From the NCBI RefSeq assembly GCF_019599295.1, contig NZ_JAIEWN010000003.1:240127-293849 (forward strand): 53,723 nucleotides of DNA, written 5' to 3'. Under the pieces are notes generated by a model, which did not search any database, was not told the DNA's origin, and saw only the letters and a list, made by a program, of their open reading frames with translations. The position numbers and the translations under genes are program-made. Positions 2,253-20,416 of this stretch are shown here, in pieces; the stretch's first letter is position 1; the number at the start of each line of letters is the position of its first letter. Source of the stretch: Oscillochloris sp. ZM17-4 (lineage in GTDB: Bacteria; Chloroflexota; Chloroflexia; Chloroflexales; Chloroflexaceae).

Positions 2253-2341
2253 GGGCAGGTCGCATAGTCTGGTCTAGTGCGCGGCACTGGAAATGCCGTA
2301 CAGCAGCAATGCTGTCGAGAGTTCGAATCTCTCCCTGCCCG
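2253..2341 (+). tRNA. tRNA-Ser(GGA)
   Basis: A complete class II tRNA can be folded by eye. The acceptor stem is GGGCAGG (2253-2259) with CCTGCCC (2334-2340). The anticodon loop CTGGAAA sits between CGGCA and TGCCG. The long variable arm is ACAGCA/TGCTGT, and the T arm is GAGAG-TTCGAAT-CTCTC (2317-2333). The following bases are GCC, so the CCA end is not fully encoded. Its 3' half is the attachment core of the adjoining integrated element. Confidence 0.95.
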
Positions 2342-2343
2342 CC
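2328..2343 (+). repeat. attL core (16 bp)
   Basis: TCTCTCCCTGCCCGCC, which is the 3' side of the T stem and acceptor stem of tRNA-Ser. It is identical to 20401-20416, while the flanking bases differ on both sides. Confidence 0.85.
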
Positions 2344-3277: not shown

Positions 3278-3553
3278 TCACTCATCCTCCGGCATAAACT
3301 GCCGCCCCAGGCCGATCATCTGGCGGATGATTGACTGGATCAGCACCAGGAAGACGACCACAATCTGCTGATCCCTCCCCGCCACACCCAGCCACATTAG
3401 CAGATCCAGTACTCGCCAGCGGGCCAGAGAGCCCAGGTAGGGCGACATTAGCCCCACCGATGCCAGGGCGACCAGACCCAGCAGTCCCCAGGAGAGGTAG
3501 AAGAGCGCGGCGATCGTGCGCTCAAACACCAGTTTCCAGCGTATTGCGGTCAT
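3278..3553 (-). CDS. Small two-helix membrane protein
   Basis: A 91-residue protein with hydrophobic helices at about residues 13-36 and 62-82 and an acidic end (MPEDE). Its ATG overlaps the stop of the ParB-like gene (TAATG), with GGAAGG just upstream, so translation is coupled. No family recognised. Last gene of the operon. Confidence 0.7.
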   Translation of the reverse strand: MTAIRWKLVFERTIAALFYLSWGLLGLVALASVGLMSPYLGSLARWRVLDLLMWLGVAGRDQQIVVVFLVLIQSIIRQMIGLGRQFMPEDE

Positions 3554-5463
3554 TACCTTCCCCCAATCATATCCACCAGGTCGTCAATGTCGCGCAATAC
3601 CTGCTCGTACTCCTCATCTGACACCCCCTCGTCATCAGTGAGCAGCTGGAGGTGATCGCCCAGGATCTCGATTGACTGCTCAATCGCAGCGCCTTTCTCG
3701 CCGGTCGTGATGCGGTTCCGCAGCTCGATAACCCAGTCTTTCAGCATTGGGAAGGGGATCGGCTCGCCGCTCTCCAGAGGGGTGAGCGCGGGTGTTTGCG
3801 CGCAAACATCGCCGTCGGCGCTCTCTGTCTCTGGCGACGCCGGCTGTAGGCTGTTGCGCAGCGTCTCGATCTGGCGCTGGTACGCCTCGGCCACATTCAG
3901 ATTGATCGTGGCGATCGTGGCGCATCGCTGCTCGGCCTGCTCCAGATAGGCGGGGGCGATCGGCAGCTCGCGCAGCTCGTGGGCGTCTGCGAGGAGCTTG
4001 CGCACCTGGGACACCTGATCCTCAAGCAGGTGAAAGAGCTGATCATCAGCTTCGGGCTGCGGCTGGTTCTTCCAGGGCAGCTCAATACCGGCCAGGGTCA
4101 GCATCTGCTCCAGCTTCTGGCGCGAGTCGTCGAGCCTGCCGGCGTCCTCATCGTATTTAATCTCTTCCCTCACCAGCTGCTCGGCGATCGCTGTGGCGAT
4201 CGTCGCGGCGCTGGCGTCGGGCGCAAGCTTCTGGCTGGCGCTGTAGTGCATCCGGCGCAACATCAGCCGCAGCATGCCCGCCGGTACGTCGGCCAGCGCG
4301 CCGGCCAGCGCGGCCTCGGCCGGCTCCTTGTACATCTGCCGGATCTGCTTCCTGTCGGCCTTCTTGCGCGCCGCGTCGCTCTTGGCCGGGTCGGCGCTCT
4401 TCTCTAGCGCGGCCTTGCACTGGCAGCGGGTTGACTTGCAGACCATGGAGTACCCGGTGTGGCCTTCAACCGGGTGAGCGCCATAGCTCACCTTGGCAAC
4501 CACCAGGTTGCTACAGCTGCGGTACTTCGCCTCTTTCTTGATATCCGACCGCTTGACCCCGCTGAGCGTGTCGTACTCGCCGTAGCCACCTACGGCATCA
4601 GCAGGCAGACCCTCCTTCGCGGCCGCGGCCGCGGCCGCGATGCGCCGCGCGGCTTTCTCTTTCAGCTCGGCGCAGAGCAGCGACGGGCAGCGGTTCGAAA
4701 CGCGCATCCGTATCGCGCACTCTTTGCAGTTCTGGTTCTGCACGCCGTCGACGGGCAGCGGCGCCTGCCAGGGCCAACTCACTTTTTCCAGGCTCACCGA
4801 TACCTTGTCTAGCAGATCATCGACGATGCGGCGCAGCTCGTCGGCCGGGATCTTGGAGATCAGCGGCACAATCTCACTCAGCGCGCTGATCTTGTTGCCC
4901 CTCACCCAGCATGAGATCGGCGTATCCCAGCTGTTGATGGGCAGCTCGGCCAGCGGCTTGAGCGCCATCATCTGGCGCTCGCTCAGTTCTCCGCCCGCGA
5001 ACAGGCGCAGCAGCTCGGCGGGCAGCTTTAGCAGGCCCACCTTGTTGGTGACTGTGGACCTGTCGATCCCCAGCTCCTCGGCCACCTGCTTATGGCTCCA
5101 GCCGAAGGCGCGCATGTAGTGATCAATCGCCCGCGCCTCTTCGTAGGGGCTGATGTCCCTCCGGTCTTTGTTCTCGCTCCAGGTCTGCTTGACCATGGCG
5201 CGGTCATCCAGCTCGCGGATGATCAGCGGCATCTGGGCGTAGGCCGGGTCGGTCTCGGCCAGCAGCGAGTATGCCCGGCGGCGGCGGTGCCCGAAGGCGA
5301 GCTGGTAGCGCTCGCCGACCTGGCGCGCCGTCGGGATCTGGAGCAGGCCGTTGGCCTTGATGCTCGCGGCTGTCTCGGCGATCGCCGCCTCGTCGTAGCT
5401 GAGCCGTGGTTGGTAGGGGTTGTCGTCGATAAGCGACAGGTGAACTAGGGTTGGGGTGATCAT
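3553..5463 (-). CDS. ParB/KorB-like DNA-binding protein
   Basis: 636 residues, twice the length of a chromosomal ParB. The N-terminus has the ParB/Srx motifs in order: NPYQPR (15-20), GHRRRRA (58-64) and ENKDRRDISPYEEA (97-110). A KorB/ParB helix-turn-helix follows at 122-146 (WSHKQVAEELGIDRSTV). The rest is unusual: Cys246, 249, 259 and 264 form a C-X2-C-X9-C-X4-C zinc-ribbon-like cluster, and there are further Cys at 317, 342, 347 and 349. The ATG at 5463 is chosen because AAGGAG lies 8 bases upstream and it overlaps the upstream stop (ATGA). The family binds parS-like palindromes and loads a CTP-dependent clamp. No ParA is visible in the element, so a KorB-like regulatory role is as likely as partition. 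A parS-like palindrome lies inside this gene (3793-3808). Confidence 0.9.
   Translation of the reverse strand: MITPTLVHLSLIDDNPYQPRLSYDEAAIAETAASIKANGLLQIPTARQVGERYQLAFGHRRRRAYSLLAETDPAYAQMPLIIRELDDRAMVKQTWSENKDRRDISPYEEARAIDHYMRAFGWSHKQVAEELGIDRSTVTNKVGLLKLPAELLRLFAGGELSERQMMALKPLAELPINSWDTPISCWVRGNKISALSEIVPLISKIPADELRRIVDDLLDKVSVSLEKVSWPWQAPLPVDGVQNQNCKECAIRMRVSNRCPSLLCAELKEKAARRIAAAAAAAKEGLPADAVGGYGEYDTLSGVKRSDIKKEAKYRSCSNLVVAKVSYGAHPVEGHTGYSMVCKSTRCQCKAALEKSADPAKSDAARKKADRKQIRQMYKEPAEAALAGALADVPAGMLRLMLRRMHYSASQKLAPDASAATIATAIAEQLVREEIKYDEDAGRLDDSRQKLEQMLTLAGIELPWKNQPQPEADDQLFHLLEDQVSQVRKLLADAHELRELPIAPAYLEQAEQRCATIATINLNVAEAYQRQIETLRNSLQPASPETESADGDVCAQTPALTPLESGEPIPFPMLKDWVIELRNRITTGEKGAAIEQSIEILGDHLQLLTDDEGVSDEEYEQVLRDIDDLVDMIGGR
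3793..3808. promoter_or_regulatory. parS-like palindrome 1 (TGTTTGCGCGCAAACA)
   Basis: Perfect 16-bp palindrome inside the 3' part of the ParB-like gene. It has the TGTTT-N6-AAACA outline of bacterial parS. Confidence 0.7.
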
Positions 5464-6176
5464 TGATTGACTCCTTGCTCTGCTGCGCGCCGCTCGGCGG
5501 CGTGCCTGCGACCGTGCTGCAATTGCTCGGCTTTGCTTAGCCCCTCGGTGCCACATTGGCGGCAGCGGTAGACGACCTTTGGCTCTTCTGGCGTATTGCT
5601 GTTATTGCCAGCTACGCCATCCGTATTGGCGTCGCTCTCCAATAGATTGACCAATAGCGGCTCAGTAAATTCCTCACGCGCCCAGGCCAGCGCTGGCGGC
5701 GCGGCCTCGGCTGGAGCATCGTCAGTCTCGGCGGTGGCGGCCAGCATCGTCGGCTCTGGCGGTGGCTCTTCGGCCAGGCGGTGGAGCAGCGAGGCCAGGG
5801 CGAAGGCCAGCCCGGCCAGCGGGGCCGACTCGGCCACCGACAGCGCCAGGGCCAGCGGATCGAACAGGTGCTGGGCAGCCAGCCAGTTCGCCAGCCCGCC
5901 CGGAACGCGGTGGGCGTAGTCGGCCAGGCCGTTGAGCGCGATCGCGGTGGCCACTGCGCCGAGGGCCACCGCGCGGGCCTGCCGGCGCAGATCGGGGCGC
6001 AGCGACAGTAGGCTGAGGCTCAAGTACGCCAGCTCGAACCCGCCAGCGGCTAGGGCGGATGCGATAGCCCCACGGGTCGGCTCCAGGGCGCGGAACACGC
6101 CGACAGCGGACGGTGCGGAGAGCAACAGCACGGCCAGCACGGCGATGCCGATCTTCCAGCGCGGGTTAATGTTCAT
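5460..6176 (-). CDS. Membrane protein with C-terminal C2H2-type zinc finger
   Basis: 238 residues from the ATG at 6176 (GGAAAG 8 bases upstream; an ATG at 6191 has poorer support). Four hydrophobic helices occupy roughly residues 8-135. A Pro/Glu/Ala-rich linker then leads to a cytoplasmic tail with Cys205, Cys208, His221 and His225, spaced C-X2-C-X12-H-X3-H, the spacing of a classical C2H2 finger. The stop overlaps the start of the ParB-like gene (ATGA), so the two are translationally coupled. A membrane-tethered DNA or protein adaptor for the ParB-like partner is a reasonable inference; no family recognised. Confidence 0.75.
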   Translation of the reverse strand: MNINPRWKIGIAVLAVLLLSAPSAVGVFRALEPTRGAIASALAAGGFELAYLSLSLLSLRPDLRRQARAVALGAVATAIALNGLADYAHRVPGGLANWLAAQHLFDPLALALSVAESAPLAGLAFALASLLHRLAEEPPPEPTMLAATAETDDAPAEAAPPALAWAREEFTEPLLVNLLESDANTDGVAGNNSNTPEEPKVVYRCRQCGTEGLSKAEQLQHGRRHAAERRAAEQGVNQ

Positions 6177-6389: not shown

Positions 6390-6617
6390 CTATCTGGCCC
6401 GGCGCAGCTGCGCGGCGCCGTGGCGGGCCTCGGCCACCCGCTCGATGTGCCAGGCCAGAGCCTCGGCGGCCGGGGTGTCGTAGCAGCGCAGCGCGTCGAT
6501 CGTCGCGGTCGCTGCGGCCGGGTTGGCCGCAGCCAGGTCGTGCAGGATGTCTACGCAGCGCTGGATCGTGTCCATAGCGCGGGTCGCAGCCTGGGCGGTT
6601 GCGTCGGAAGTCTTCAC
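6390..6617 (-). CDS. Small helical protein of unknown function, 75 aa
   Basis: Starts at the GTG overlapping the upstream ATPase stop (GTGA), with AGGGG upstream. The product is Ala-rich and predicted helical (TIQRCVDILHDLAAANP). No recognised domain. The tight overlap suggests it acts with the ATPase. Confidence 0.6.
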   Translation of the reverse strand: MKTSDATAQAATRAMDTIQRCVDILHDLAAANPAAATATIDALRCYDTPAAEALAWHIERVAEARHGAAQLRRAR

Positions 6618-8062
6618 GGTGTTACCCCTTTTGGGCCTGGGGCCGCTCGCCACCAGGCGCGGGTTTCTTCGCTGCTGCCGCCCAGCTCGGCGAAGGCCTT
6701 GCGGTGTGATATCCCGACTGCCTTGCGGGCCTCATACGCAGCCCGCAGCTCGGCTTTCCTCTCATCCTGCTGTTGCTCCTGCGCCAGCTGTCGGCGCCGG
6801 TGCATATTCAGGCCACGGCCTCGGCGCGGGCGCACACGTCCAGGAGGTATGGCCTCAGCGCGGGCGTTGACGTTCAGGGTGATGCCCGGTGCGCCTGCGC
6901 CTGCGCCTGCGCCTAAGCTCATTACCACCCCTGCCGCGCCTGCGCCTGCGCCTGCTGTGTAAGTCGCAGTCGCAGTTTCAGTCGCGGGTGCGCCTACGCT
7001 TTGTGATGCGCTAGGCGCGGGTTCGGCCAGGAGGTACGCCAGCAAATCATCAGGCGCGATCTGAGTTGTCACTCCTTCTGCCGGTCGCGGCACTGCGACT
7101 GCCGCCGGGGTGGTGATCAGGCTCTCCGGGTCGGTGAGCTCGGGGATGGGCAGGCTGATCTTCTTGCCGCTCTCGGCGTCGCGCAGCACCGCCACCCGCC
7201 GCCCGTCGCGGCCCTTGAGCACGTCGGCGATCTGCAGGTTGCGCAGTACCTCGCTCTTGCCCTTCAGCCCCAGCGTGCCGACCATCTTGTCCTGAACCCC
7301 TACGGTCATACGAATATTCAATTTGCCGCCCCGACGGGCCACGTCCTCGAACAGCTCTAGGCCACCGTCGAGGGCGGGCAAAACGTCCTGGGCCTCATCA
7401 ATGACTAGGTGCAGCACCGGGAACCGGCGCACGCCCTGGGCGCGCTGGGCGCGGCGCTCGGCCACCTCTGCGTCGACAATCGTCAGCAGCTCGCCGATGC
7501 TCGCGATGTTGTCGCCGGCACCGCGCACCTCGCAGCCGGGCCAGAGGCCGGGCGCGGCGTCCGGGTCGCCCACCAGCACCCGCTCACCGCGCGCGGCCCA
7601 GTCGGTAGCCATGGCGTGGATGAGCGTCGTTTTTCCGCCGCGCGTGTGACCGATGATCAGCCGGTGCGGGGTATCTTCAAGCTGGCGCTGTAGCTCGCCT
7701 GCGGCCGGCTCCGCTTCCTGCTGCGCTGCCTGCGCCTTGGGCGTGCGCCCGGTGGCCGATGTTTGCGCGCAAACATCGGCCGGCGCCGCCGGCGCCGGCA
7801 GCGCCCGGCGCAGCTGGGCGGGCAGCTGGCGCAGCTGGGCGGGCAGCTGGCGCAGCTGCGCCGGCGCCGGCAGCTGCGCCAGGTAGGGGGTGATCTCCTG
7901 GCGCACCTCGGGCACGGTGAGCGCGCAGCCACCGACCGCAATCCCCGCCGGCACGATCCAGATCGGCGAGCCCGGCAGCGCAACCGTGCAGACGCCGGCG
8001 GCACCGCCGAATAGGCCGATCAGCAGCCCCCGGGCCAGCTCCTCTCCGGTGATCAGCGCCAT
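6614..8062 (-). CDS. FtsK/HerA-superfamily ATPase with N-terminal membrane anchor
   Basis: 482 residues. Two hydrophobic segments lie at about 11-50. A Pro/Gln-rich repeat (RQLPAQL units) occupies 63-88. Walker A GHTRGGKTT is at 138-146 and Walker B VLHLVIDEAQD at 216-226, followed by a sensor-like stretch TVGVQDK. The C-terminal 130 residues are an Ala/Gly repeat and a basic tail. Membrane anchor plus P-loop motor fits DNA pumping or virion assembly (TraD/VirD4-, FtsK- or phage pI/Zot-like); the sequence does not decide which. AGGGGG precedes the ATG. Codons 96-101 lie in a parS-like palindrome (7760-7775). Confidence 0.8.
   Translation of the reverse strand: MALITGEELARGLLIGLFGGAAGVCTVALPGSPIWIVPAGIAVGGCALTVPEVRQEITPYLAQLPAPAQLRQLPAQLRQLPAQLRRALPAPAAPADVCAQTSATGRTPKAQAAQQEAEPAAGELQRQLEDTPHRLIIGHTRGGKTTLIHAMATDWAARGERVLVGDPDAAPGLWPGCEVRGAGDNIASIGELLTIVDAEVAERRAQRAQGVRRFPVLHLVIDEAQDVLPALDGGLELFEDVARRGGKLNIRMTVGVQDKMVGTLGLKGKSEVLRNLQIADVLKGRDGRRVAVLRDAESGKKISLPIPELTDPESLITTPAAVAVPRPAEGVTTQIAPDDLLAYLLAEPAPSASQSVGAPATETATATYTAGAGAGAAGVVMSLGAGAGAGAPGITLNVNARAEAIPPGRVRPRRGRGLNMHRRRQLAQEQQQDERKAELRAAYEARKAVGISHRKAFAELGGSSEETRAWWRAAPGPKGVTP
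7760..7775. promoter_or_regulatory. parS-like palindrome 2
   Basis: TGTTTGCGCGCAAACA inside the ATPase gene. Perfect symmetry extends to 28 bp (7754-7781). Confidence 0.75.
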
Positions 8063-11426: not shown

Positions 11427-11443
11427 TATCTTAATCTTGTATC

Positions 11444-11513: not shown

Positions 11514-12317
11514 ATGAACGAGGAAACCGAGGCCGTAGAGGGTATGCCACGGGTGACGGCGATCACCCAGCGGGCGGTGGAGTTTTACGGCGACAACCTG
11601 GTTGCGGTACAGGCCGAAGGCGGGATCTATGTCCCGGTCAAGCGAGTCTGCGAGGCGCTGGGGATCGACTGGGAGTCGCAGCGCCAGCGGATTATGCGCG
11701 ACGAAGTTCTCAATTCAGTTGCCTGTGTAATACAGGCAACTGGAACCGATGGGAAGCGCTACGACATGGTCTGCCTGCCGGACGACATGCTGCACGGGTG
11801 GCTGTTCGGGGTGAGCGCGGAGCGGATCAAGCCGGAGAACCGCGAGCAGCTGCTACGCTACAAGCGCGAGTGCTACCGCCGGCTGCACGAGTCGTTCACG
11901 GGCGCAGACATCAGCGCGACCCGCCTGGCGGCGCTGGAGGCGCGGCTGGCGGCGCTAGAGGCCCGGCGGGGGCCAGCGCCGGCGGCGACGCGGGCCGCGC
12001 TGCCCGAGGTGGTGAGCAGCCGGGTGCGGCCGAGGGAGCGGACGGGGCGCATGGTGTACCGGCGGGTGACGGAGCGGATCACCGAGATCGTGGAGCTGGT
12101 AGACATCCCCGAGGCGCCGCGCACCGAGTCGGTGCTGGCGGCGCTGCGCCAGGCCGGGCGGCCGCTGCGGCCGCGCGAGATCACGGCGCTGCTCCAGGCC
12201 GCCGGGCTGGAGGTGGTGCCGGTGCAGGTATCGCAGGCGCTGTGGGCGCTGGAGCAGGCCGGGCGGGTGATCCGGCAGGACGACGGGGCGTACCGGGCGG
12301 AAGGGGGCGAGGGGTGA
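11514..12317 (+). CDS. P22-type phage antirepressor family protein
   Basis: 267 residues. Residues 18-128 match the P22_AR_N domain: FYGDNLVAVQ, YVPVKRVCEALGIDW, QRQRIMRDEVL, CLPDDMLHGWLFGV, and YKRECYRRLHESF. An Ala-rich coiled linker follows, then a winged-helix-like end (residues 205-262, SVLAALRQAGRPLRPREITALL). In P22-like phages this family inactivates the prophage repressor. Placement opposite an XRE repressor supports that role. GAGAGG precedes the ATG, and it is first of a plus-strand operon reaching the integrase. Confidence 0.8.
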   Translation: MNEETEAVEGMPRVTAITQRAVEFYGDNLVAVQAEGGIYVPVKRVCEALGIDWESQRQRIMRDEVLNSVACVIQATGTDGKRYDMVCLPDDMLHGWLFGVSAERIKPENREQLLRYKRECYRRLHESFTGADISATRLAALEARLAALEARRGPAPAATRAALPEVVSSRVRPRERTGRMVYRRVTERITEIVELVDIPEAPRTESVLAALRQAGRPLRPREITALLQAAGLEVVPVQVSQALWALEQAGRVIRQDDGAYRAEGGEG

Positions 12318-12610: not shown

Positions 12611-12762
12611 AGACTAGCGCATTTATCATCGGCTTCAGCGTGGGCCTGCTCGGCCTGGTGTACGGCCTGCCGCTGGGCCTGCTTGTGGAGGCTGGTAATC
12701 AGCAAGGTGAGGGGGTAGGGGATGGGCAGCGATACAGTCGACCTGTACGACCTGAAGCTTAA
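12607..12762 (+). CDS. Tiny membrane peptide, 51 aa
   Basis: GTG start overlaps the upstream TGA. One hydrophobic helix at residues 5-27 (AFIIGFSVGLLGLVYGLPLG), then a polar basic tail that overlaps the start of the next gene in another frame. The overlap chain argues that it is translated, though nothing else is known. Confidence 0.5.
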   Translation: MKTSAFIIGFSVGLLGLVYGLPLGLLVEAGNQQGEGVGDGQRYSRPVRPEA

Positions 12763-13234
12763 GGCGTCAGACAAGAAAAGCTGGCATGAGCCAGGGAGGA
12801 TCTATCTGGAGTTTACGTGCCCGCGATGCGATACGTGCAACGACATTTCGCTATCGGCTGAGGAACTGCTCGGCGATGTAGAAATCGTATGCCAGCACCC
12901 CTACTGCGGCGGCAAGAAACATTTTCTCTTCACGATGAGGCTTGAGGGCAGCGGCTTCGCCACCTCAATACTGTCTCGCCCAGTGGGGAAGGGCAGTGGG
13001 ACGCTCTATCGGGTCACTGGCAAGATCACCTACCTCAATGCCGACAACTCGATCCACTCGATCGCTATCGTCAACCGCATTATCGAGGCCGACAACCCGG
13101 ACAGCGCGACTATGTCAGTTGTAGAAGCAGCGTATCCAGACGGTGCGGGCGGAAGCGAAGATGATCTCACAGCCAAGGCCATAGGCCCAACACTCCAGTC
13201 GATTGCGAAACGACGCCGTGGTGAGCAGGAGTAG
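12722..13234 (+). CDS. Zinc-ribbon protein of unknown function, 170 aa
   Basis: GAGGGGGTAGGGG precedes the ATG. Residues 32-63 carry CPRCDTC and CQHPYCGG, so two Cys pairs for one zinc. The rest looks like a beta-rich soluble domain. Its stop abuts the integrase gene. It may be a regulator or accessory protein of the integration module. Confidence 0.65.
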   Translation: MGSDTVDLYDLKLKASDKKSWHEPGRIYLEFTCPRCDTCNDISLSAEELLGDVEIVCQHPYCGGKKHFLFTMRLEGSGFATSILSRPVGKGSGTLYRVTGKITYLNADNSIHSIAIVNRIIEADNPDSATMSVVEAAYPDGAGGSEDDLTAKAIGPTLQSIAKRRRGEQE

Positions 13235-13239
13235 TGAGT

Positions 13240-14202
13240 ATGGAAAGAGCAATGACAGAGCCAACCGTACAGACCCGGCGCGAGCTGGTGCTGCTGCCGG
13301 CCGACCGGCCCGACGTGCGGACGCCGCTGCGCGACCTGGTGGAGCCCTTCCGGCGCTCGCTGGTGGCCAAGAAGCTGCGCCCGAGGGGTATCCGCACCTA
13401 CGTCTACACGCTGAACCTCTTCGTGGCCTGGATGGACGCCGACGCGACGATCAAGGATGTCACCAGCGCGGCGGTGCGGCGCTACCAGGAGAAGCTATCA
13501 GAAGACGACATGGCCGGGGCGACGATGGGCAACCGGCTGTCGTGCATCCGCGGCTTCTGCCGCTGGGCCCGGCGCGAGGGGATGATCGACGACGACCCGA
13601 CCCGCGACGTGGAATGGCCGAAGAAGAAGCTGACAGCGCCGCGGCCGCTCAAGCCGGCCCAGCTGCGCGAGCTGCTGGCCAGCCTGAAGCAGCCGCCGGA
13701 GAATCGCTATCACCACAGCATGTGGAAGCGCGGCCGGCTGGCGATCATCCTGATGCTCTTCTCGGGCCTGCGCCTGGCCGAGGCGGCGGCGCTGCGCTGG
13801 GAGCATATCGACCTGGATGACGGGCTGCTGATGGTCTACGAGGGCAAGGGCGGGAAAGACCGCAACGTGCCGCTGCACAGCATGCTCAGGCTGAATCTGG
13901 AGCACGTGCCCGAGGCCGAGCGCACGGGCAGCGTGCTGAAGAACATCGACGGCGAAGACATCAGCCGCCGCTCGCTGGAGTCGCTGATGCGGCGGCTGCC
14001 CAGGGTGCTGAACCTCTCGTACCGGTTCACCGCCCACCAGCTGCGCCACAGCTTCGCCACCCAGATCCTCAGGCACGGCGGCGACCTGCGCAGCATCCAG
14101 GTGCTGCTGGGCCACTCCAGCCTAGAGACGACCATGCGCTACATCCTGGTGGACCCGGAGCAGGCGCGGGCGGCGGTGGACTGCCTGCCGGCGGGGTGGT
14201 AG
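13240..14202 (+). CDS. int: Tyrosine recombinase (integrase of the element)
   Basis: 320 residues of XerC/D-like size. An N-terminal SAM-like core-binding domain (30-118) is followed by the catalytic domain with the full set of residues: Arg178 (SGLRLAE), Lys near 203-206 (GKGGKDR), His266-x-x-Arg269 (HQLRHSFA), His292 (LGHSS) and the nucleophile Tyr301 (TMRYILVD). It cuts and rejoins DNA at the att cores. Start 13240 is supported by AGGAG 8 bases upstream; GTG 13234 and ATG 13252 are alternatives. It lies in the middle of the element, not beside an att site. Confidence 0.95.
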   Translation: MERAMTEPTVQTRRELVLLPADRPDVRTPLRDLVEPFRRSLVAKKLRPRGIRTYVYTLNLFVAWMDADATIKDVTSAAVRRYQEKLSEDDMAGATMGNRLSCIRGFCRWARREGMIDDDPTRDVEWPKKKLTAPRPLKPAQLRELLASLKQPPENRYHHSMWKRGRLAIILMLFSGLRLAEAAALRWEHIDLDDGLLMVYEGKGGKDRNVPLHSMLRLNLEHVPEAERTGSVLKNIDGEDISRRSLESLMRRLPRVLNLSYRFTAHQLRHSFATQILRHGGDLRSIQVLLGHSSLETTMRYILVDPEQARAAVDCLPAGW

Positions 14203-14210
14203 GCAGGCAC

Positions 14211-14224
14211 GTTTGCGCGCAAAC
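14211..14224. promoter_or_regulatory. parS-like palindrome 4
   Basis: GTTTGCGCGCAAAC with CA at its right and C at its left; 8 bp after the integrase stop. Confidence 0.65.
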
Positions 14225-14240
14225 ATCGCCCAACACAAAG

Positions 14241-14261
14241 CCCCCTGGCAGTGCCAGGGGG
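14241..14261. terminator. Hairpin between convergent genes
   Basis: CCCCCTGG-CAGTG-CCAGGGGG, an 8-bp stem with 5-base loop. It separates int from the minus-strand HTH gene and is flanked on both sides by parS-like palindromes. Minus-strand reading continues CTTTGTGTT, a weak T tract. Confidence 0.6.
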
Positions 14262-14266
14262 CTGAC

Positions 14267-14280
14267 GTTTGCGCGCAAAC
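14267..14280. promoter_or_regulatory. parS-like palindrome 5
   Basis: GTTTGCGCGCAAAC, 56 bp from palindrome 4; only this pair is close together. Confidence 0.65.
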
Positions 14281-14285
14281 ATCGG

Positions 14286-14495
14286 CTAGGGAATCTCGTA
14301 CCGGTTGGGGATTCTGCCCTTCCCAGTCACCTTTTTAATCTGACCCCGCAACTCCAGACGCCTGATGGTGCGCTCAACGGTGCAGCGCGCAAAACTCGTC
14401 ACGATCGCAATATCCTGGAGGCTCTGCTGTGGATTAGAGCGCAGAGCCTTCAGGATATGGTCCTCAACACGAGGCGACGGTGATATGTCAGACAT
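14286..14495 (-). CDS. Winged-helix DNA-binding protein, 69 aa
   Basis: Starts at ATG 14495 after AGGAGGGG. The protein is one winged helix: VEDHILKALRSNPQQSLQDIA, then a recognition helix (RCTVERTIRRLELRGQIKKV) and a wing (GKGRIPNRYEI). Last gene of the long minus-strand block; probably its regulator. Confidence 0.7.
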   Translation of the reverse strand: MSDISPSPRVEDHILKALRSNPQQSLQDIAIVTSFARCTVERTIRRLELRGQIKKVTGKGRIPNRYEIP

Positions 14496-14640
14496 CTGGC
14501 CCCTCCTCATTATCATTGGCTAGGTGGAACGGAGAACGCAGCTGCCAGCCTCGCCGCGCCAGGAAGTAGCCCAGCGCGCCCCCCCACAGCGGCCCGGTGC
14601 AGAGACCCACACCGGCGATGGTGATCAGTATATCGCTCAT
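14488..14640 (-). CDS. Tiny membrane peptide, 50 aa
   Basis: One helix at residues 5-28 (LITIAGVGLCTGPLWGGALGYF) and an arginine pair, then a polar tail. GGAAG about 10 bases before the ATG. The end overlaps the start of the winged-helix gene. Confidence 0.55.
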   Translation of the reverse strand: MSDILITIAGVGLCTGPLWGGALGYFLARRGWQLRSPFHLANDNEEGPDV

Positions 14641-14647
14641 GTCGAGT

Positions 14648-14887
14648 CTACTTCCCGTGTATTACGGCAGGCAAAAACACAGTGTAGGAGGCAGATGATA
14701 CCACCGCAGCGCTCGGCGCGTTGCAGCCGTGCAGCATGGGGATGATCAGCGACCAGGCCGCGAGATTAGCCGCGGCGAATCGGATCAGATGAGACGTGCG
14801 CCGCTCGGCCCGGGCCGTGCCAATCAGCGCCTTCAGCTCGGCGCGCTGGCGCGGCACCGACGAGATTTCGAGGATATCGTGGCTCAT
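14648..14887 (-). CDS. Small membrane protein, 79 aa
   Basis: ATG overlaps the stop of the spike-like gene (ATGA). A basic, helical N-terminal half (RQRAELKALIGTARAERR) is followed by hydrophobic stretches (AAANLAAWSLIIPML and AAVVSSASYTVFLPAVI). No family recognised. By position after the spike-like gene it could be compared with pVI of filamentous phages. Confidence 0.6.
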   Translation of the reverse strand: MSHDILEISSVPRQRAELKALIGTARAERRTSHLIRFAAANLAAWSLIIPMLHGCNAPSAAVVSSASYTVFLPAVIHGK

Positions 14888-16200
14888 ATGAAGGGGATCA
14901 GCTCAATCAGCGCGAGCACCAGCCGGATCAGCTTGATGATCCAGTCGATGATCCACAGCGCGAGGCGGGCGAACGACGCGAACGCGAGCGCCACGAGCAC
15001 AGGCATGATCGGCAGCAGTGCGGGCTCCAGCGCCCAGAGCGGGCCACCATCCACCGACCAGGCCGGATTGTTGGGGTTGACGATCGCCATCCAGGACAGG
15101 GCCGGCTGGGCGATCGCCAGCGCCGTTGCGCCGGCCTGCTGGCCGGACGACCAGGAGAACGTGCCCGTCATCGTCGCGATGCCGGCCGCCGGCGTCTCCA
15201 CCCCGGCCAGGACCGTCTGCTCCAGGGCGATCAGCGCAGTGATGCTGATCATCGCCGTGCCGGTAATGGTGGCCGTGGGGGAGGCGCGCAGCGGGATCAC
15301 GAACGACAGGTTCGGCATCGCGTAGGAGATCACCGTCGCGGTGGCGGCCACAGGGATACAGTAGGCCGTGGGCACATCAACCGGGCCAGGTGTCCAGGTG
15401 GGCGCGCCGGTCGGCGTCAACGTGGCAGCCGTGCCGGCGCAGATCCACACCTCGGCCGGCCCGGTCAGCGAGTAGGCCGTGTACGGTCCGCTGGCCAGCT
15501 GCCAGGTGTACTGGCCAGCCTGGATTTCCCGCGCGGTGGCTCCGATGTTGAGCCAGATATTGGCGCCTGAGACGACGAACTGCACGCCTATCTCCATATA
15601 CAGCTGCGCAGTCCCCGGCGCAACCGGCACGCCGATCCGGTCGCCCACCGCGCACGGCAGCGGCGGCGCGGTGGGTCCGGCGAGATTGTATCCGGCGGAA
15701 AACCACAACAAACGAGATCCATCAGCAGCGACATTAACTGACGCCATTGAGCGCGCTGCTGATGTTCCATACGAAGGTGCCCCAACTCCAGATATTGGAG
15801 ATGCGAGATCAACGCCAGCATACGAACCTATCATCAGGACCGAATACGGCGAAGGTAGCGCGTAGTCAAATCGATAGGATGTAGGAACTCCGATACGGTA
15901 GTACGCCTGCGCCCAGTGCGTTCCGTTGTCAGCGCTTGAGATCAGCGTCCATCCAGTATCGAACGGGGAGACGGACACAATCGCATCGTATCCGACAAGT
16001 AAGGCGATCTGAATGGTTGACGCAGATACCCCCGCTGGTGCAACGCCGGTGATGTTCGTAGACGGCGCAGGATTGACAACACCCGTAAACGAGGGATTGG
16101 CAATAGCTGCACTCGAGGGAGTAGGATACGCACATACAAGCAGCGCAAGCAGCAGCAGCATGGACAGCAATGCGGACTGCCGTTTTTTCCAGCGCGTCAT
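14884..16200 (-). CDS. Secreted, membrane-anchored spike-like protein
   Basis: About 438 residues; ATG 16200, or the GTG at 16203 that overlaps the upstream stop. A clear Sec signal peptide (KKRQ, then LLLLALLVCAYPTPSSA) covers residues 1-31. The ectodomain (32-390) is beta-rich and Thr/Ala/Gly-rich; its first part (FDTGWTLISSADNGTHW, AYYRIGVPTSYRF, IGSYAGVDLASPI) resembles a domain common in phage tail and surface-binding proteins. The last 45 residues are hydrophobic with a charged hairpin, a C-terminal membrane anchor. This architecture is that of a pIII-like adsorption protein or a pleolipovirus spike. A plain surface adhesin is the alternative. Confidence 0.75.
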   Translation of the reverse strand: MTRWKKRQSALLSMLLLLALLVCAYPTPSSAAIANPSFTGVVNPAPSTNITGVAPAGVSASTIQIALLVGYDAIVSVSPFDTGWTLISSADNGTHWAQAYYRIGVPTSYRFDYALPSPYSVLMIGSYAGVDLASPISGVGAPSYGTSAARSMASVNVAADGSRLLWFSAGYNLAGPTAPPLPCAVGDRIGVPVAPGTAQLYMEIGVQFVVSGANIWLNIGATAREIQAGQYTWQLASGPYTAYSLTGPAEVWICAGTAATLTPTGAPTWTPGPVDVPTAYCIPVAATATVISYAMPNLSFVIPLRASPTATITGTAMISITALIALEQTVLAGVETPAAGIATMTGTFSWSSGQQAGATALAIAQPALSWMAIVNPNNPAWSVDGGPLWALEPALLPIMPVLVALAFASFARLALWIIDWIIKLIRLVLALIELIPFI

Positions 16201-16568
16201 CACTTAATCCTCAATCGGCGATTTCGCTGCTGAGCCTCACGGCTGGGCAGCGCTCTGCCAGCTCGCTGCCGGCGAAGAATGGCAATCTCGCGGGTCGAAA
16301 ATCCCTGGTCGCGCAGCTCGCGATAGCCAGAGCTGCGGATTGTCTGATACTGGACAATCGCATCTTCTCGATCGCTCCGCAGCGACTCCATTTCGGCCTG
16401 CATAGAGTCCATCCGCTCGCCCTTGGCCGTCGCTTTCGTCCAAACGAAAAAGCGCAAGAGGAGGAGGATGATCACGAAGGGCACCGCGATCTGGCCCACA
16501 TGCGACGACAGTGTGTTGTCGATAAGCCACTTCACCAGCGCATAAATCGCACCTTGAGTTGCGCTCAT
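16200..16568 (-). CDS. One-helix membrane protein with coiled coil, 122 aa
   Basis: Transmembrane helix at about residues 24-44 (VGQIAVPFVIILLLLRFFVW), then a charged coiled coil (MDSMQAEMESLRSDREDAIVQ) and a basic tail ending RRLRIK. First gene after the internal terminator. Its stop overlaps the start of the spike-like gene. Confidence 0.65.
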   Translation of the reverse strand: MSATQGAIYALVKWLIDNTLSSHVGQIAVPFVIILLLLRFFVWTKATAKGERMDSMQAEMESLRSDREDAIVQYQTIRSSGYRELRDQGFSTREIAILRRQRAGRALPSREAQQRNRRLRIK

Positions 16569-16589
16569 CTCCCCCCCTCCCCCTAAACA

Positions 16590-16626
16590 AAACAGGGCGG
16601 CAGGGTTGTCCCCTGCCGCCCTGTTT
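16590..16626 (-). terminator. Internal terminator after the coat-like gene
   Basis: 16-bp perfect stem with 5-base loop; on the minus strand it is followed by TGTTTAG. It divides the block into an upstream part with the coat-like peptide and a downstream part with the spike-like gene, so upstream messages would be more abundant. Confidence 0.85.
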
Positions 16627-16646
16627 GCGTGCAGTTCACCAGCGGA

Positions 16647-16848
16647 TTACCAGTTGGTGAACTTCTTGACGACGGCGATTGTGCCAAAGACGAGGGCGAC
16701 CAGAAGGCCGAAGTCGCTGATGACAGAGAGGGCAGTCGGCGTCGCAGGGAAGAGGATGCCGATGACCAGGTCGAACAGCGAGTTGAGCAGGAGCAGGAAG
16801 ACATCGAGGGCCGCCTGCAGTTCAGCGGGAAGGGTAGCTGTTGGACAT
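16647..16848 (-). CDS. Coat-like two-helix membrane peptide, start unclear
   Basis: The convincing reading frame begins at GAA 16823 (ELQAALDVFLLLLNSLF) and ends at 16647, giving two hydrophobic helices joined by PATPT and a Lys-terminated end VVKKFTNW. That end resembles filamentous phage major coat proteins (helix then KKF). No ATG, GTG or TTG is available in this frame. The nearest ATG (16848) lies one frame off, reads MSNSYPSR and stops at TGA; a +1 shift at CGC-TGA would join the two. AAGGAG touches that ATG, too close for normal initiation. Programmed shift, CTG start, decay or a base-call error are open. Confidence 0.55.
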
Positions 16849-16882
16849 CTCCTTGGGCTAAGAGCGGATATACAAGGGGCCG

Positions 16883-16957
16883 TGGGGCCAGGATCGGGAT
16901 TTGAACCCGCATTACTGCGTAACAGGCGCAGCGTGTTTCCAGTTACACTATCCCGGC
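16883..16957 (-). tRNA. Element-borne tRNA(-like) gene, Thr(UGU) or Asn(GUU), atypical
   Basis: GCCGGGA (5', 16957 down) pairs with TCCTGGC, followed by C and an encoded CCA (16885-16883). D arm GTGT/ACAC, anticodon stem CTGCG/CGCAG, T loop TTCAAAT. The fold puts CCTGTTA in the anticodon loop: strict numbering gives anticodon TGT but with C33 and T37, while sliding one base gives T33-GTT-A37 with a broken stem. The T stem has a G-A pair. It may be a degenerate tRNA, or an RNA-processing signal inside the operon, since it sits directly between two membrane-protein genes. Confidence 0.7.
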
Positions 16958-16958
16958 G

Positions 16959-17159
16959 CTATTGACCTCGCAACAACTTCCAGAGAGCGGCGCGCAATCG
17001 ATCCTCGGGCATCTGGCTCTGCGTGCGATACCAGCGCAGACCGCGCTGGAGCAGGCGCCGGATATCGAGCAACAGCGTAAACGTGATGATCAGCAGCAGC
17101 TCGTAGTTCAGTGCGTCCCCTGCAACAGCCGATAGGTACGCTGGTAGCTGAGAGAGCAT
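16959..17159 (-). CDS. Small membrane protein, 66 aa
   Basis: One hydrophobic helix (ELLLIITFTLLLDI, residues 20-33) and a basic amphipathic C-terminus. ATG overlaps the preceding stop (TAATG). Its stop is 1 bp from the tRNA-like gene. Confidence 0.65.
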   Translation of the reverse strand: MLSQLPAYLSAVAGDALNYELLLIITFTLLLDIRRLLQRGLRWYRTQSQMPEDRLRAALWKLLRGQ

Positions 17160-17263
17160 TAATCGTCCATTGGACCGAACAGCATATAGCCGATCGCGTC
17201 GAAGAACTCACTGAGCAGCAGCATGAGCGCGATCGCTGACAGGATCTGCTGAAGCGGGTGCAT
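17159..17263 (-). CDS. Tiny membrane peptide, 34 aa
   Basis: GGAGG lies 6 bases before the ATG and the stop is shared with the next start (TAATG), good evidence for translation despite 34 residues. Mostly hydrophobic: LSAIALMLLLSEFFDAIGYML. Similar in size to pVII and pIX of filamentous phages; homology cannot be judged. Confidence 0.65.
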   Translation of the reverse strand: MHPLQQILSAIALMLLLSEFFDAIGYMLFGPMDD

Positions 17264-17741
17264 CCGTGCCCTCCAGATCGAGCAGAAATTGCTCAACATC
17301 AGCTATCCGCCAGAGCCGTTCTCGTGACTGATTTGGACGAACCGCGACATACCCCTCGCTCTCTGCGATGCTCAGTGAGCAGCCGCGCGCCGCGCAGCGA
17401 GCCATCAGGATGTACTCGCGTTTTGTGACCCCCGCATCGGTGCTGAGATCGGCCACGATGTCTTTACAGGCATTCCAAGCAGCCACGAACGCGAGGCCGG
17501 TCACAAAAGCAGCTGGCATGGAAGCCACCACCGCGTGGTTCTCTACCGCGAGTCCGGCCAACATGAGATCCGAGAGCTGCGCCAGTACGCGGACGGCATC
17601 TGCGCGCAGGACATCGTCAAACCCTGGCGGCAGCAGCGTGGCGCCGACCAGCCCGACATAAACGGCGAGGATGAGGCTAAAAACGCGTAGGGATAGCTGC
17701 GCCGCAGTGCCGAAAACAAACCACCAGTTGATGCGCTTCAT
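17208..17741 (-). CDS. Membrane protein with cytoplasmic C-terminal domain, 177 aa
   Basis: Two to three hydrophobic helices in residues 5-40 and 58-92. The C-terminal half contains REYILMARCAARGCSLS and a possible excisionase-like fold (YVAVRPNQSRERLWRIADVEQFL). ATG overlaps the acetyltransferase stop (ATGA). The 3' end overlaps the 34-aa gene. Confidence 0.65.
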   Translation of the reverse strand: MKRINWWFVFGTAAQLSLRVFSLILAVYVGLVGATLLPPGFDDVLRADAVRVLAQLSDLMLAGLAVENHAVVASMPAAFVTGLAFVAAWNACKDIVADLSTDAGVTKREYILMARCAARGCSLSIAESEGYVAVRPNQSRERLWRIADVEQFLLDLEGTDAPASADPVSDRAHAAAQ

Positions 17742-18202
17742 AGACCGCGCTCCATCAGCTCATAGCGATAGCCGCCGCGCCAGATCTCGCCGACGGCGAC
17801 ATATCCAGCGCGCTGGTAGCAGCGGGCGGCGCGGATATTCTCCGCCGCCACATCCAGCTGCAGCGTGGACAACCCCAGCTGGCGGCCGACGACCAGCATC
17901 AGGCTCATCGCCTCGGTGCCGAGACCGGAGCCCAGATGTCCAGGGTGCAGCGCGATGCCGAGCCGGGCCGCGCTATCGCTGATCAGGAGGCTGATCCGCC
18001 CGGTCAGGTGTACGCCAAGCAGATCGACGGCATATGACAGCCGCTCACCGCTGGCGCGTGACGCTGCCAGCCAATGAGCGGGGAGAGTGGGGGTATACGG
18101 CGGCCAGTGGTCGATCTGCCGCCGATCATGGCGGCGATGCCACGGGCGAATGCCGATGCGGGAGGATTTTGCGAGGTAGGTTAAATGCGTGTGCGGTGCC
18201 AT
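17738..18202 (-). CDS. GNAT-family acetyltransferase
   Basis: 154 residues with the GNAT core: LGIALHPGHLGSGLGTEAM (acetyl-CoA loop, like R-Q-x-G-x-G/A), then LQLDVAAENIRAARCYQRAGYVAVGE typical of RimJ/L-type enzymes. Start at ATG 18202 lies inside the 49-aa upstream gene. No strong ribosome site, so coupling is likely. Substrate unknown; unusual cargo in a block of membrane proteins. Confidence 0.8.
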   Translation of the reverse strand: MAPHTHLTYLAKSSRIGIRPWHRRHDRRQIDHWPPYTPTLPAHWLAASRASGERLSYAVDLLGVHLTGRISLLISDSAARLGIALHPGHLGSGLGTEAMSLMLVVGRQLGLSTLQLDVAAENIRAARCYQRAGYVAVGEIWRGGYRYELMERGL

Positions 18203-18330
18203 AGATCGTAGATGTAGAGCGTCATCAGTGCCACCAACAGCAGGATGATAACGATCTGGCCCCAATCCATCGAACGATTCAGTATCGCCCAGGTCCCATC
18301 CGGCAACTGAATGAGGACGGTCGTGTCCAT
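18181..18330 (-). CDS. Tiny membrane peptide, 49 aa
   Basis: MDTTVLIQLPDGTW then a helix GQIVIILLLVALMTLYIY. First gene of the minus-strand block. No ribosome site; a TATTAT box (about 18341-18336) lies 6 bases before the ATG, so the message would be nearly leaderless if used. Confidence 0.5.
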   Translation of the reverse strand: MDTTVLIQLPDGTWAILNRSMDWGQIVIILLLVALMTLYIYDLWHRTRI

Positions 18331-18352
18331 ACGCCGATAATACAGCAAAGGT

Positions 18353-18396
18353 TTCACATTTGCAGCAGCCTCTTTTCACATTTGCAGCAGCCTCTT
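18353..18396. repeat. Perfect 22-bp tandem repeat, 2 copies
   Basis: Copies at 18353-18374 and 18375-18396, with core CACATTTGCAGCAGCCTC. It lies between the divergent block and the FtsK-like gene, so it may be a regulator site. Confidence 0.85.
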
Positions 18397-18411
18397 TTTG
18401 AAGAACTGACG

Positions 18412-18441
18412 TTGAGTATTGAAATGATGAACGGATAAAAT
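18412..18441 (+). promoter_or_regulatory. Possible promoter of the FtsK-like gene
   Basis: TTGAGT (18412-18417), 18-base spacer, TAAAAT (18436-18441) in a locally AT-rich stretch, followed by AAGGAG and ATG at 18476. Confidence 0.5.
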
Positions 18442-18475
18442 GATAATAGGAAAGATTCCAACCAAGGAGAACATT

Positions 18476-20311
18476 ATGCGCCTCCTCAAGTTGCTGTTCA
18501 CGCCAATTCGGGTTGTCATTTCTCCACTTACACGCTGGATCAACCAGTATCTGCGCAGCCACGACAGCGCCGCCGGTCGGCGGCGGCGCCAGGCGCAGCG
18601 CTACGCCGATGCGCTGCTGGCTGAGCTGGCGCGGCTTGGCTTCGCCAGCCGGGTCGTAATGAAGAAGGGCAAGGTCAAGCGGCGGCGGATGCGCTACGTC
18701 TACCCGCTGCTGATGACGCAGAATGAGCTATGGCTGCCGCTCGACCAGCGCAGCCTGCCCATCGGCCGCACCACCGACGAGCTGCGCGACGAGCAGATCA
18801 TCAACTCGCTGGTGGATCGGCTCAACGCAGGCGTGCGAGCAGACTATCTGGCCAGCGGCCAGTTCTGCTACGTGGTGTCGCTGGGCGGGGCGGCCTTCCC
18901 AGATGTCTACTCGCTCAACAGCTTTACGATGCCGCCCGATGCGCCGATCCTGGCGGTGCCGATGGGCATCGACAGCGCCGGCGATCAGGTTGTTGGCGAT
19001 CTGATGGAGTACAAACACTTCCTGATCGCCGGCGCGACAGGGGGCGGTAAAACGACGCTCTACCACAGCATCATCAATACATTCATCAGCCGCAACAGCG
19101 CGGACACGATGGAATTGTGGCTCGTTGATATGAAGCGCAGCGAGTTCTCGCTGTACCGCAGCCTGATGGGGAAGCGCGACCAGGCCGGCATCGTGCGCCA
19201 TATCGCGGTCGCCCCCGAGTCGGCGCTGAACCTGCTCGGCCAGGCATACAAGGAGATTGAGCAGCGCAACCGGATCTTCGAGCGCGCCGGCGTCACCTCG
19301 ATCGGCGCCCTGGAGCGCTCGACTGGCCAGAAGCTCAAGAGGATTGTTCTGTTAGTCGATGAGTTTGCAATTTTGACCACTGACACCACGAAGATTGGCA
19401 AGCAGTCGGTGGGCAGCTGGGCCAAGCTGCTGATGACCCGGATTGCATCACTCGGCCGGTCGGCCGGCGTCACGATCTGCATCGGCACCCAGATGGTGCA
19501 GAGCAAGGTGATCGACTCGATGATCACCGCGAACTTTGAGAACAGGATTGCGTTTTCTTGTGCGACCTGGCGCGAAAGCAATTTGATCATCCAGACCAGC
19601 GAGGCGGTCAATCTGCCTCCCGGCCGGGCCATCCTGCGCGTGGCCGGGCGCACCAGCGAGATCCAGACCTGCTATGTGACCCCGGAGCAGGTTACGCTAG
19701 AGGTATCGCGCGTCGCGGAGTTTGGACCAGACGGCGGCCTGGGCGACGCGGACGAGCGCCAGTTCGTGCGCAACGCGAAGCTGCTGCTTGATGTGGCCTG
19801 TCGGCAGCTGAACGGTGATTTTGTGCGCTCCAAGCTGCTGGCGATGGAGGGTATTCGCGGACAAATCTCCTGGGATATGTTTGACGAGATCGCACGGCGG
19901 CTGGAGCGAGACGGCATCTTAGAGCCAGCCCGATCGCGCTTCCCGCGTAAGGTGGCGCGAGCCTTCTTCGGCAACCCCAATCTGCTCGATGCCTTTTACG
20001 GCATGCTGGATGAACCTACGGCAGCCCGCACCACACCGCTACTCGGCACCCGCTCTGCATCCCATGGCGATTCGATGCGGAGTGGTGAAGATGCAATGCC
20101 GAGCGAGCATCAGGACGCGGAAAACAACATCATCATCATCGACACGGATGCGGAGTGTGGAGCGCCCGAATCGCCCGCGCATGCCAACACAGAGAACGAC
20201 GCCCGCGAACCCGAGGCCGCGACACTACCTCCAGAGTTCGAGAAGTTGTTCGAGAAGCTGGGCCAGGAGGAGAAGAAGCCAAAGAAGAAGCGGAAGAAGC
20301 CGGGCGAGTGA
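18476..20311 (+). CDS. FtsK/SpoIIIE-type DNA translocase
   Basis: 611 residues. Walker A GATGGGKTT at 186-194, Walker B IVLLVDEFA at 290-298, and the C-terminal motor part with IGTQMVQSKVI, ITANFENRIAF and GRAILRVAGR, all typical of FtsK/SpoIIIE and actinomycete TraB/TraSA motors. No multi-span membrane domain; only an amphipathic basic N-terminus (residues 1-30). The C-terminus is acidic and disordered, ending in EKKPKKKRKKPGE. ATG 18476 is chosen for AAGGAG 7 bases upstream. In AICEs one such protein moves double-stranded DNA between cells; in viruses related motors package DNA. No relaxase accompanies it here. Confidence 0.9.
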   Translation: MRLLKLLFTPIRVVISPLTRWINQYLRSHDSAAGRRRRQAQRYADALLAELARLGFASRVVMKKGKVKRRRMRYVYPLLMTQNELWLPLDQRSLPIGRTTDELRDEQIINSLVDRLNAGVRADYLASGQFCYVVSLGGAAFPDVYSLNSFTMPPDAPILAVPMGIDSAGDQVVGDLMEYKHFLIAGATGGGKTTLYHSIINTFISRNSADTMELWLVDMKRSEFSLYRSLMGKRDQAGIVRHIAVAPESALNLLGQAYKEIEQRNRIFERAGVTSIGALERSTGQKLKRIVLLVDEFAILTTDTTKIGKQSVGSWAKLLMTRIASLGRSAGVTICIGTQMVQSKVIDSMITANFENRIAFSCATWRESNLIIQTSEAVNLPPGRAILRVAGRTSEIQTCYVTPEQVTLEVSRVAEFGPDGGLGDADERQFVRNAKLLLDVACRQLNGDFVRSKLLAMEGIRGQISWDMFDEIARRLERDGILEPARSRFPRKVARAFFGNPNLLDAFYGMLDEPTAARTTPLLGTRSASHGDSMRSGEDAMPSEHQDAENNIIIIDTDAECGAPESPAHANTENDAREPEAATLPPEFEKLFEKLGQEEKKPKKKRKKPGE

Positions 20312-20314
20312 GGA

Positions 20315-20330
20315 TGTTTGCGCGCAAACA
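20315..20330. promoter_or_regulatory. parS-like palindrome 6
   Basis: TGTTTGCGCGCAAACA 4 bases after the FtsK-like stop and 70 bp from attR. Confidence 0.75.
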
Positions 20331-20359
20331 TCGCCGCAAACATCATCCAACAAAACACG

Positions 20360-20392: not shown

Positions 20393-20400
20393 CTAGATTC

Positions 20401-20416
20401 TCTCTCCCTGCCCGCC
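20401..20416 (+). repeat. attR core (16 bp)
   Basis: TCTCTCCCTGCCCGCC, identical to 2328-2343. Chromosomal genes start 12 bp later. Confidence 0.85.

Follow-up and report, generated by a model that had tools for sequence, protein, structure and literature searches.

In a 53,723-nucleotide (nt) stretch of the Oscillochloris sp. ZM17-4 genome (contig NZ_JAIEWN010000003.1, positions 240,127 to 293,849; hereafter the window), an 18.1-kb element (~2328–20416) is integrated in a host tRNA-Ser gene. Its minus strand carries a block of genes encoding small membrane proteins and a large anchored surface protein. Within this block, a coat-like gene that lacks a canonical start codon follows a tRNA-Thr-type gene, the anticodon of which is the exact cognate of the codon 7 nt after the Shine–Dalgarno sequence (SD) of the coat-like gene. 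From these sequence features we propose, with a probability of about 0.5, that a dedicated tRNA of the element lets translation of a major membrane protein begin at an ACN codon, and that the block may represent the surface or dissemination module of a capsid-less, integrative and circularising DNA element of Chloroflexaceae.

The coat-like gene and its cognate tRNA

An original prediction, made from the DNA alone, had placed here a coat-like peptide with the C-terminus KKFTNW and a 5′ end at 16823. The hydrophobic open reading frame (ORF) with this C-terminus and a stop at 16647 is present, but the 5′ end could not be upheld, as the frame is free of ATG, GTG and TTG over the 39 codons that reach back to the stop upstream. 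The block recurs in two related elements, L019 (genome G003) and L018 (genome G004), and in none of the three elements does a canonical start lie 3–12 nt after the SD. Comparison with L019 revealed 15, 15 and 36 differences at the first, second and third codon positions (of 63), a pattern that marks the ORF as a real coding gene. It is flanked by a conserved AGGAG upstream and a conserved hairpin downstream, and its product contains two hydrophobic segments in all three elements. Two other ways of starting the frame were rejected. An ATG or GTG start with a +1 shift (ATG-TCC-AACA in the window, GTG-TCC-AACA in L019) would directly adjoin the SD, leaving no spacer, and L018 reads GCA there; no start codon inside the ORF is conserved, and its use would leave the SD idle.

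At a spacing of exactly 7 nt downstream of AGGAG, the codon is ACA in the window element and in L019, and ACU in L018. In the window element, L019 and L018, the tRNAs encoded upstream bear the anticodons UGU, UGU and AGU, respectively. The two are thus exact cognates in 3/3 cases, with a concerted change of anticodon and codon in L018. From this codon the coat-like frame runs for 64, 63 and 65 codons, respectively. The complementarity extends past the triplet, given that base 37 of the tRNA pairs with the mRNA base before the codon (U-A, U-A and C-G), and base 33 pairs with the G on its other side (C-G, U-G and U-G).

As a control, we collected at least 120 sites in IMG/VR at which a tRNA 3′ half is followed by AGGAG-N7-AC, 99 of them with a called tRNA. 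Among the matches listed, a single tRNA in 99 was cognate, and its frame comprised 3 codons. At 25 other viral sites with the exact 3′-end pattern, no frame opened by a cognate codon exceeded 43 codons, and an ordinary start was within reach in most. Moreover, the layout of tRNA 3′ end and SD occurs three times in 158 genomes of the class, always in these elements, with no control matches. With a background of ~1% and with the window element and L019 counted as one case, a chance origin of the codon–anticodon match appears unlikely, in the order of 1e-4, a rough value derived from few and related cases.

In the window, a single nucleotide separates the tRNA gene from the stop codon before it; the gene encodes its CCA and lies 41 nt upstream of the coat-like ORF. 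It is syntenic in L019 and L018, and the distance to the start is 41–50 nt across the three elements. In the cloverleaf shared by the three tRNAs, 98.4% of the cells are paired and 6 pairs are changed on both sides; only 1 of 500 shuffles was as good, and slid versions reached at most 47%. This pairing and covariation indicate that the tRNA is under structural selection. The GCCCCA-3′ end, the T-loop and the pairs G1:C72 and C2:G71 are invariant. The anticodon loop of the window tRNA reads C32 C33 UGU U37 A38. Position 33 is C, T and T, and position 37 is T, T and C, in the window, L019 and L018 genes, respectively, whereas the remaining tRNAs called in the host genome have T33 and A/G37.

The modification t6A (N6-threonylcarbamoyladenosine) is universal at position 37 of tRNAs that decode ANN codons, with U36-A37-A38 as its motif (PMC9654439). 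Having U, U and C at position 37, the element tRNAs lack this motif; the U33 expected of an elongator is replaced by C33 in the window copy, and an anticodon NGU with G1:C72 and C2:G71, as in elongator tRNA-Thr, is present. Judged from its sequence, the element tRNA is no normal Thr elongator, nor is it a standard initiator, as 98.6% of bacterial initiators are mismatched at 1:72 (PMC5143459). In the P site three G-C pairs of the anticodon stem are gripped, and the stem has been linked to start-codon choice (PMC11497404). Positions 29–31/39–41 read GGG/CCC in L018, GGG/CUC in L019 and GCG/CGC in the window; elsewhere in the compared tRNA set, a GGG/CCC stem was found in tRNA-fMet only.

Proposed start mechanism and its rivals

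In the model that we propose, the two-segment membrane protein would be encoded by a short, probably abundant unit composed of tRNA, SD, ORF and hairpin. Once excised from the operon transcript, the tRNA would leave behind a short coat-like mRNA and would be charged, probably with threonine, given its G1:C72, C2:G71, G35 and U36. These four are identity elements of threonyl-tRNA synthetase. Afterwards, the strong SD would place the ACN codon in the P site, where the tRNA would pair and start translation without ATG, GTG or TTG; the pairing at 33 and 37 may offset the absent initiator features. Initiation by the tRNA, its charging with threonine, its action in trans and the major structural role of the protein are all points that we infer. 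We see it as evenly balanced whether the 4- to 5-base loop pairing of a private tRNA is the sole way to start the major membrane protein at ACN, in which case its synthesis would depend on the element's tRNA rather than on fMet-tRNA.

Several observations weigh against this proposal. The three elements come from draft genomes, and with ACA/UGU in both the window and L019 they amount to about two independent observations. All three tRNAs have G1:C72 in place of the 1:72 mismatch of initiators and are also paired at U11:A24, so that formylation and IF2 recognition are expected to be poor. The full initiator GGG/CCC stem is found in one of the three, and C33 in the window tRNA would be odd for any tRNA used on the ribosome. 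Finally, a codon-supply role is possible in part, given that ACA occurs at 7.2 per 1000 in element genes versus 0.8 in host genes.

This 9-fold enrichment also fits an alternative that we consider unlikely, namely an ordinary phage-type tRNA that helps to decode Thr codons or stands in for tRNAs cleaved by host anticodon nucleases, and/or serves as an RNase P processing site from which the short coat-like mRNA arises. The match would then be coincidental, and the coat-like gene would start at some other rare codon. That the tRNA, a short leader and the terminator hairpin bound the coat-like unit in all three elements is consistent with this alternative, as are the anticodon-loop changes frequent in phage tRNAs, among which loops that evade anticodon nucleases are known (PMC10264068). 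Such evasion leaves the agreement with the start codon unaccounted for, however, and the element has just one tRNA, at a fixed place in front of a gene that lacks a start codon. By background, a cognate codon stands here in only ~1/99 of the viral matches listed. In L018, ACU is the rarest Thr codon (13 versus 49 ACA), yet the tRNA reads ACU, fitting the start codon and not the codon usage; this contradicts codon supply as the sole role. Furthermore, tRNAs with no t6A37 motif and, in the window, with C33 would be poor elongators, and no alternative start codon is conserved across the three elements.

The main mechanistic rival acts in cis and strikes us as quite improbable. Here the tRNA-shaped leader would remain part of the coat-like mRNA and, through its anticodon loop, pair with the start region over 5 contiguous bases, wobble included, to place the ribosome. 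Translation would start at or beside the paired codon, as with the tRNA-like domain of the dicistrovirus intergenic internal ribosome entry site (IRES), in which a tRNA-like pseudoknot pairs with the start region and a non-AUG start lies beside it (PMC8002689). Such a leader is in line with the complementarity outside the triplet, at bases 33 and 37 of each of the three tRNAs, and with the short distance of 41–50 nt between tRNA and start. However, the invariant GCCCCA-3′, T-loop and G1:C72/C2:G71 suit a processed and charged tRNA and are needless for an IRES; unlike the IRES, the bacterial element has a true tRNA gene with CCA, as well as a conserved SD. Excision by host RNase P would also be expected.

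A close likeness to initiation by a dedicated tRNA is found in engineered or mutant bacterial initiator tRNAs, which start at the codon matching their changed anticodon, so that, downstream of an SD, a non-AUG start is defined by the anticodon. In contrast to these, the element tRNA is natural, lies beside its only apparent target, has an elongator-type acceptor stem with G1:C72 and pairs through 33 and 37. In the open-access PMC literature we found no natural gene with a dedicated non-methionine tRNA for its own start. If our proposal is true, the coat-like gene would be such a case in bacteria, one gene freed from the host initiation machinery by a mobile element. It would further suggest a role for some mobile-element tRNAs and provide a ready-made orthogonal start system.

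Aside from the element's tRNA-Thr, neither tRNA-Thr nor tRNA-Tyr was found in the host genome (G000; a draft of 6.7 Mb in 182 contigs), which is probably an assembly gap. A dense, mobile-element-like array of low-scoring tRNAs (Arg, Gln, Phe, Pro and Ser) is located at L132 (G000:C95:215200-216400).

Virus or transfer element

The identity of the element is a question separate from the mechanism of its tRNA, and the likelihoods voiced for the rivals on each side do not sum together. The original prediction had suggested a capsid-less or filamentous temperate virus of Chloroflexota. A temperate-type element with a conserved surface module is indeed what we found, whereas the filamentous option was not supported. 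The tyrosine integrase, the P22_AR antirepressor, a helix-turn-helix (HTH) repressor and the att repeats agree with the predicted temperate switch and with an integrative element. Profile searches of the element (Pfam, PHROGs and NCBIfam) revealed no family match to a capsid, terminase, Zot/pI ATPase, relaxase or VirB4, in keeping with the predicted lack of an icosahedral capsid and terminase; matches of tail and terminase profiles were confined to generic domains.

Comparisons with PDB entries and structure models did not separate viral from conjugative use. In the PDB, the translocase encoded next to the block finds FtsK (2e-51) and the conjugation coupling protein TcpA (7e-38) as about equally good matches, with FtsK scoring higher. 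The AlphaFold2 model of the membrane ATPase (6614–8062) has a predicted local distance difference test (pLDDT) score of 43, and its best fold matches, EccC/FtsK/HerA-type motors, are too weak to distinguish the two uses. The spike-like protein gave a model with a pLDDT of 35 and, in a profile search against PDB sequences, T/P-rich or chance matches only.

A conjugation-like element driven by an FtsK/TcpA-type motor is a tentative reading that falls just short of an even chance. In such an element the surface protein would be an adhesin, a mating channel would be built from the NlpC/P60-polytopic and small transmembrane (TM) proteins, and the DNA would be accompanied by the ddrB-ParB protein found in a sister lineage (see below). 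The TcpA match of the translocase, a match of the sister-lineage translocase to plasmid TraB (9e-15), the ddrB-ParB protein itself and the match of the NlpC/P60 domain to Tn916-type hydrolases, among many others, argue for it. An FtsK-like translocase, integration in a tRNA gene and small TM proteins are likewise features of the FtsK/TcpA- or TraB-type transfer elements pCW3 and AICE (actinomycete integrative and conjugative element). In contrast to these, the element has large, variable adhesin-like proteins, and no relaxase, VirB4 or MOB family match was found in it, although relaxase and VirB4 are unneeded for an AICE. Also unfavourable are the higher score of FtsK over TcpA and the lack of an NlpC domain in the window element.

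A capsid-less, pleolipovirus-like temperate virus is possible but doubtful. Its vesicles would carry the two-segment protein inside and the anchored spikes outside, with FtsK loading the DNA. Pleolipoviridae combine an anchored spike and small membrane proteins with a small genome and no capsid. Comparable features of the element family are the fast-varying anchored spikes (439–1040 aa), the single delimited small-protein unit, the repressor/antirepressor switch, the circular relatives of 17–18 kb and the lack of a capsid gene. The variation in surface-protein length would resemble that of receptor-binding proteins, or equally of adhesins. However, the host is bacterial, the motor is FtsK, no profile match to VP3/VP4-type proteins and no profile or structural match to any virion protein was detected, the spike model is low-scoring, and the phage collection and IMG/VR hold no relatives beyond generic FtsK.

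A filamentous inovirus-like phage is very unlikely: although small TM proteins, a coat-like protein ending in KKFTNW, a strong hairpin and a large secreted, anchored protein follow one another much as in the Ff order VII-IX-VIII-terminator-III-VI, the element has no pI/pII homologue, Zot/pI ATPase or inovirus PHROG or Pfam match, replaces the rolling-circle initiator or transposase of Inoviridae by DnaA-C, Rep-like winged-HTH and ParB proteins, uses an FtsK/TcpA-like motor and a tRNA leader, and encodes a coat-like protein with two hydrophobic segments, unlike the single-TM pVIII to which it had been likened.

The collections searched hold no description of the element family, with its FtsK motor, variable anchored surface proteins and no capsid, and the family could constitute a novel kind of bacterial virus or transfer element.

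Surface block, relatives and gene content

The coordinates of the block and of the other element genes are listed in the table below. The minus-strand TM peptides of 49, 34 and 66 aa, the strong terminator, the one-TM protein behind it, the secreted and C-terminally anchored spike-like protein and the small TM proteins that follow were all recovered as first described. That description had overlooked the tRNA-Thr gene, and the GNAT acetyltransferase and the 177-aa membrane protein are further members of the block. The block is beyond chance; gene order and sequence are kept in L019 and partly in L018.

Table. Features of the element in window coordinates
Feature	Position	Strand	Evidence or remark
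49-aa one-TM peptide	18181..18330	-	conserved in L019 and L018
GNAT acetyltransferase, N-terminus approximate	17738..18196	-	Pfam Acetyltransf_1 6.6e-10; 59% aa identity in L019; also in L018
177-aa membrane protein	17208..17741	-	32% identity in L019
34-aa TM peptide	17159..17263	-	homologue in L019
66-aa TM protein, stop codon 1 nt before tRNA	16959..17159	-	62% identity in L019
tRNA-Thr-type gene, anticodon UGU (34-36 at 16924-16922)	16883..16957	-	ARAGORN; Rfam 47.5 bits
SD AGGAG of coat-like gene	16849..16853	-	conserved in all three elements
Coat-like 64-aa protein, proposed start ACA (16841-16839), C-terminus KKFTNW	16647..16841	-	cognate codon at SD+7; codon differences vs L019
Terminator-like hairpin 3′ of coat-like gene	~16589..16626	-	folded region -44.9 kcal/mol
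122-aa one-TM protein	16200..16568	-	51% identity in L019
439-aa secreted, C-terminally anchored spike-like protein	14884..16203	-	N-terminal signal helix and C-terminal helix
79-aa small membrane protein	14648..14887	-	conserved in L019 and L018
50-aa TM peptide	14488..14640	-	50% identity in L019
Winged-HTH protein	14286..14516	-	53% identity in L019; HTH_24 5e-4
FtsK/TcpA-type DNA translocase, 623 aa	18440..20311	+	Pfam FtsK_SpoIIIE 1.7e-16
Tyrosine integrase	13234..14202	+	Phage_integrase 2.9e-32
P22_AR-type antirepressor	11514..12317	+	match 1.2e-33
Membrane-anchored P-loop ATPase, FtsK/EccC/HerA-like	6614..8062	-	weak family matches; 57% identity in L017
ParB-like protein	3553..5556	-	TIGR00180 5e-34
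Host tRNA-Ser (GGA), integration target	2253..2343	+	ARAGORN/Rfam
att repeat TCTCTCCCTGCCCGCC, element left end	2328..2343	+	16-bp direct repeat of tRNA-Ser 3′ end
att repeat, element right end	20401..20416	+	recurrence of 16-bp tRNA-Ser 3′-end repeat

A search with the spike-like protein in the 158 genomes of the class revealed relatives in six genomes including its own: four other genomes of the family, an extra copy in the own genome, and a weak match in G143 that lies inside an unrelated gene. The block-carrying relatives are named uncultured Chloroflexaceae and Oscillochloris. In L019 the order is the same, from ftsK through the 49-aa peptide, GNAT, the 177-, 34- and 66-aa membrane proteins, the tRNA and the coat-like gene to the 122-aa protein, the spike, the small proteins and the winged-HTH protein; identities to L019 are 60% for FtsK, 68% for the coat-like protein and 59% for GNAT. 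L018 has in common ftsK (45% identity), the peptide, GNAT, the tRNA, the coat-like gene, the spike and the next gene. Both relatives contain additional spike-like and polytopic genes, their hairpins fold at -53.7 kcal/mol (L019) and -31.2 kcal/mol (L018), and the spike homologues measure 684–1040 aa.

To the sister lineage belong L020, L021, L038, L099 and, from the window's own genome, L017. This lineage encodes FtsK, a related spike, a polytopic protein with an NlpC/P60 domain, and a ddrB-ParB protein whose N-terminus is small and hydrophobic. L020 and L099 have terminal overlaps of 77 bp and are therefore circles of 18,286 and 17,116 bp, respectively; these complete relatives (L020:1-18363 and L099:1-17193) also carry a DnaB helicase. 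Circles are present in genomes G014 and G016. The "polyvalent" ddrB-ParB protein (L017:6619-8541, L099:8061-9998) shows a two-segment hydrophobic N-terminus, TolA-like repeats and a strong match to phrog_5143. The coat-like protein is weakly similar to the small genes of the sister lineage and to the N-termini fused to its ddrB-ParB protein (hhalign P = 0.005, probability 7%), and homology between the small genes of the two lineages is thus not claimed. The fusion to ddrB-ParB is a further point against a filamentous phage. These small genes start with ATG, and no tRNA is present in that lineage.

Searches of phage, plasmid and IMG/VR collections, the last with ftsK, spike and coat-like profiles, yielded no relative of the element beyond generic FtsK domains. 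The IMG/VR ftsK matches L291–L301 share the motor domain alone and were rejected as relatives. The ftsK relative L034 differs in its upstream region, and a tRNA-Thr beside an ATPase relative in L085 is an attachment-site tRNA and unrelated. In genome G002, L035 (378-469 and 6131-6958) holds a degraded relic of a related element with pieces of ftsK and integrase, and the same contig carries tRNA-Ser(GGA), the same tRNA as the target of the window element.

The element also encodes a protein with a DnaA C-terminal domain, as revealed by family profile searches. In the adjoining Rep-like gene, four 18-bp tandem repeats CACGATCATTTGATCGTC (9799–9888) have an iteron- or origin-like appearance. Six copies of a palindrome, GTTTGCGCGCAAAC with the core TTTGCGCGCAAA, lie inside the element (3789, 7756, 10241, 14206, 14262 and 20311), and it is absent from the relatives checked; it may be bound by ParB or by a regulator. 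Directly upstream of the target tRNA-Ser, a 71-bp tandem duplication with 99% identity spans 2102–2243.

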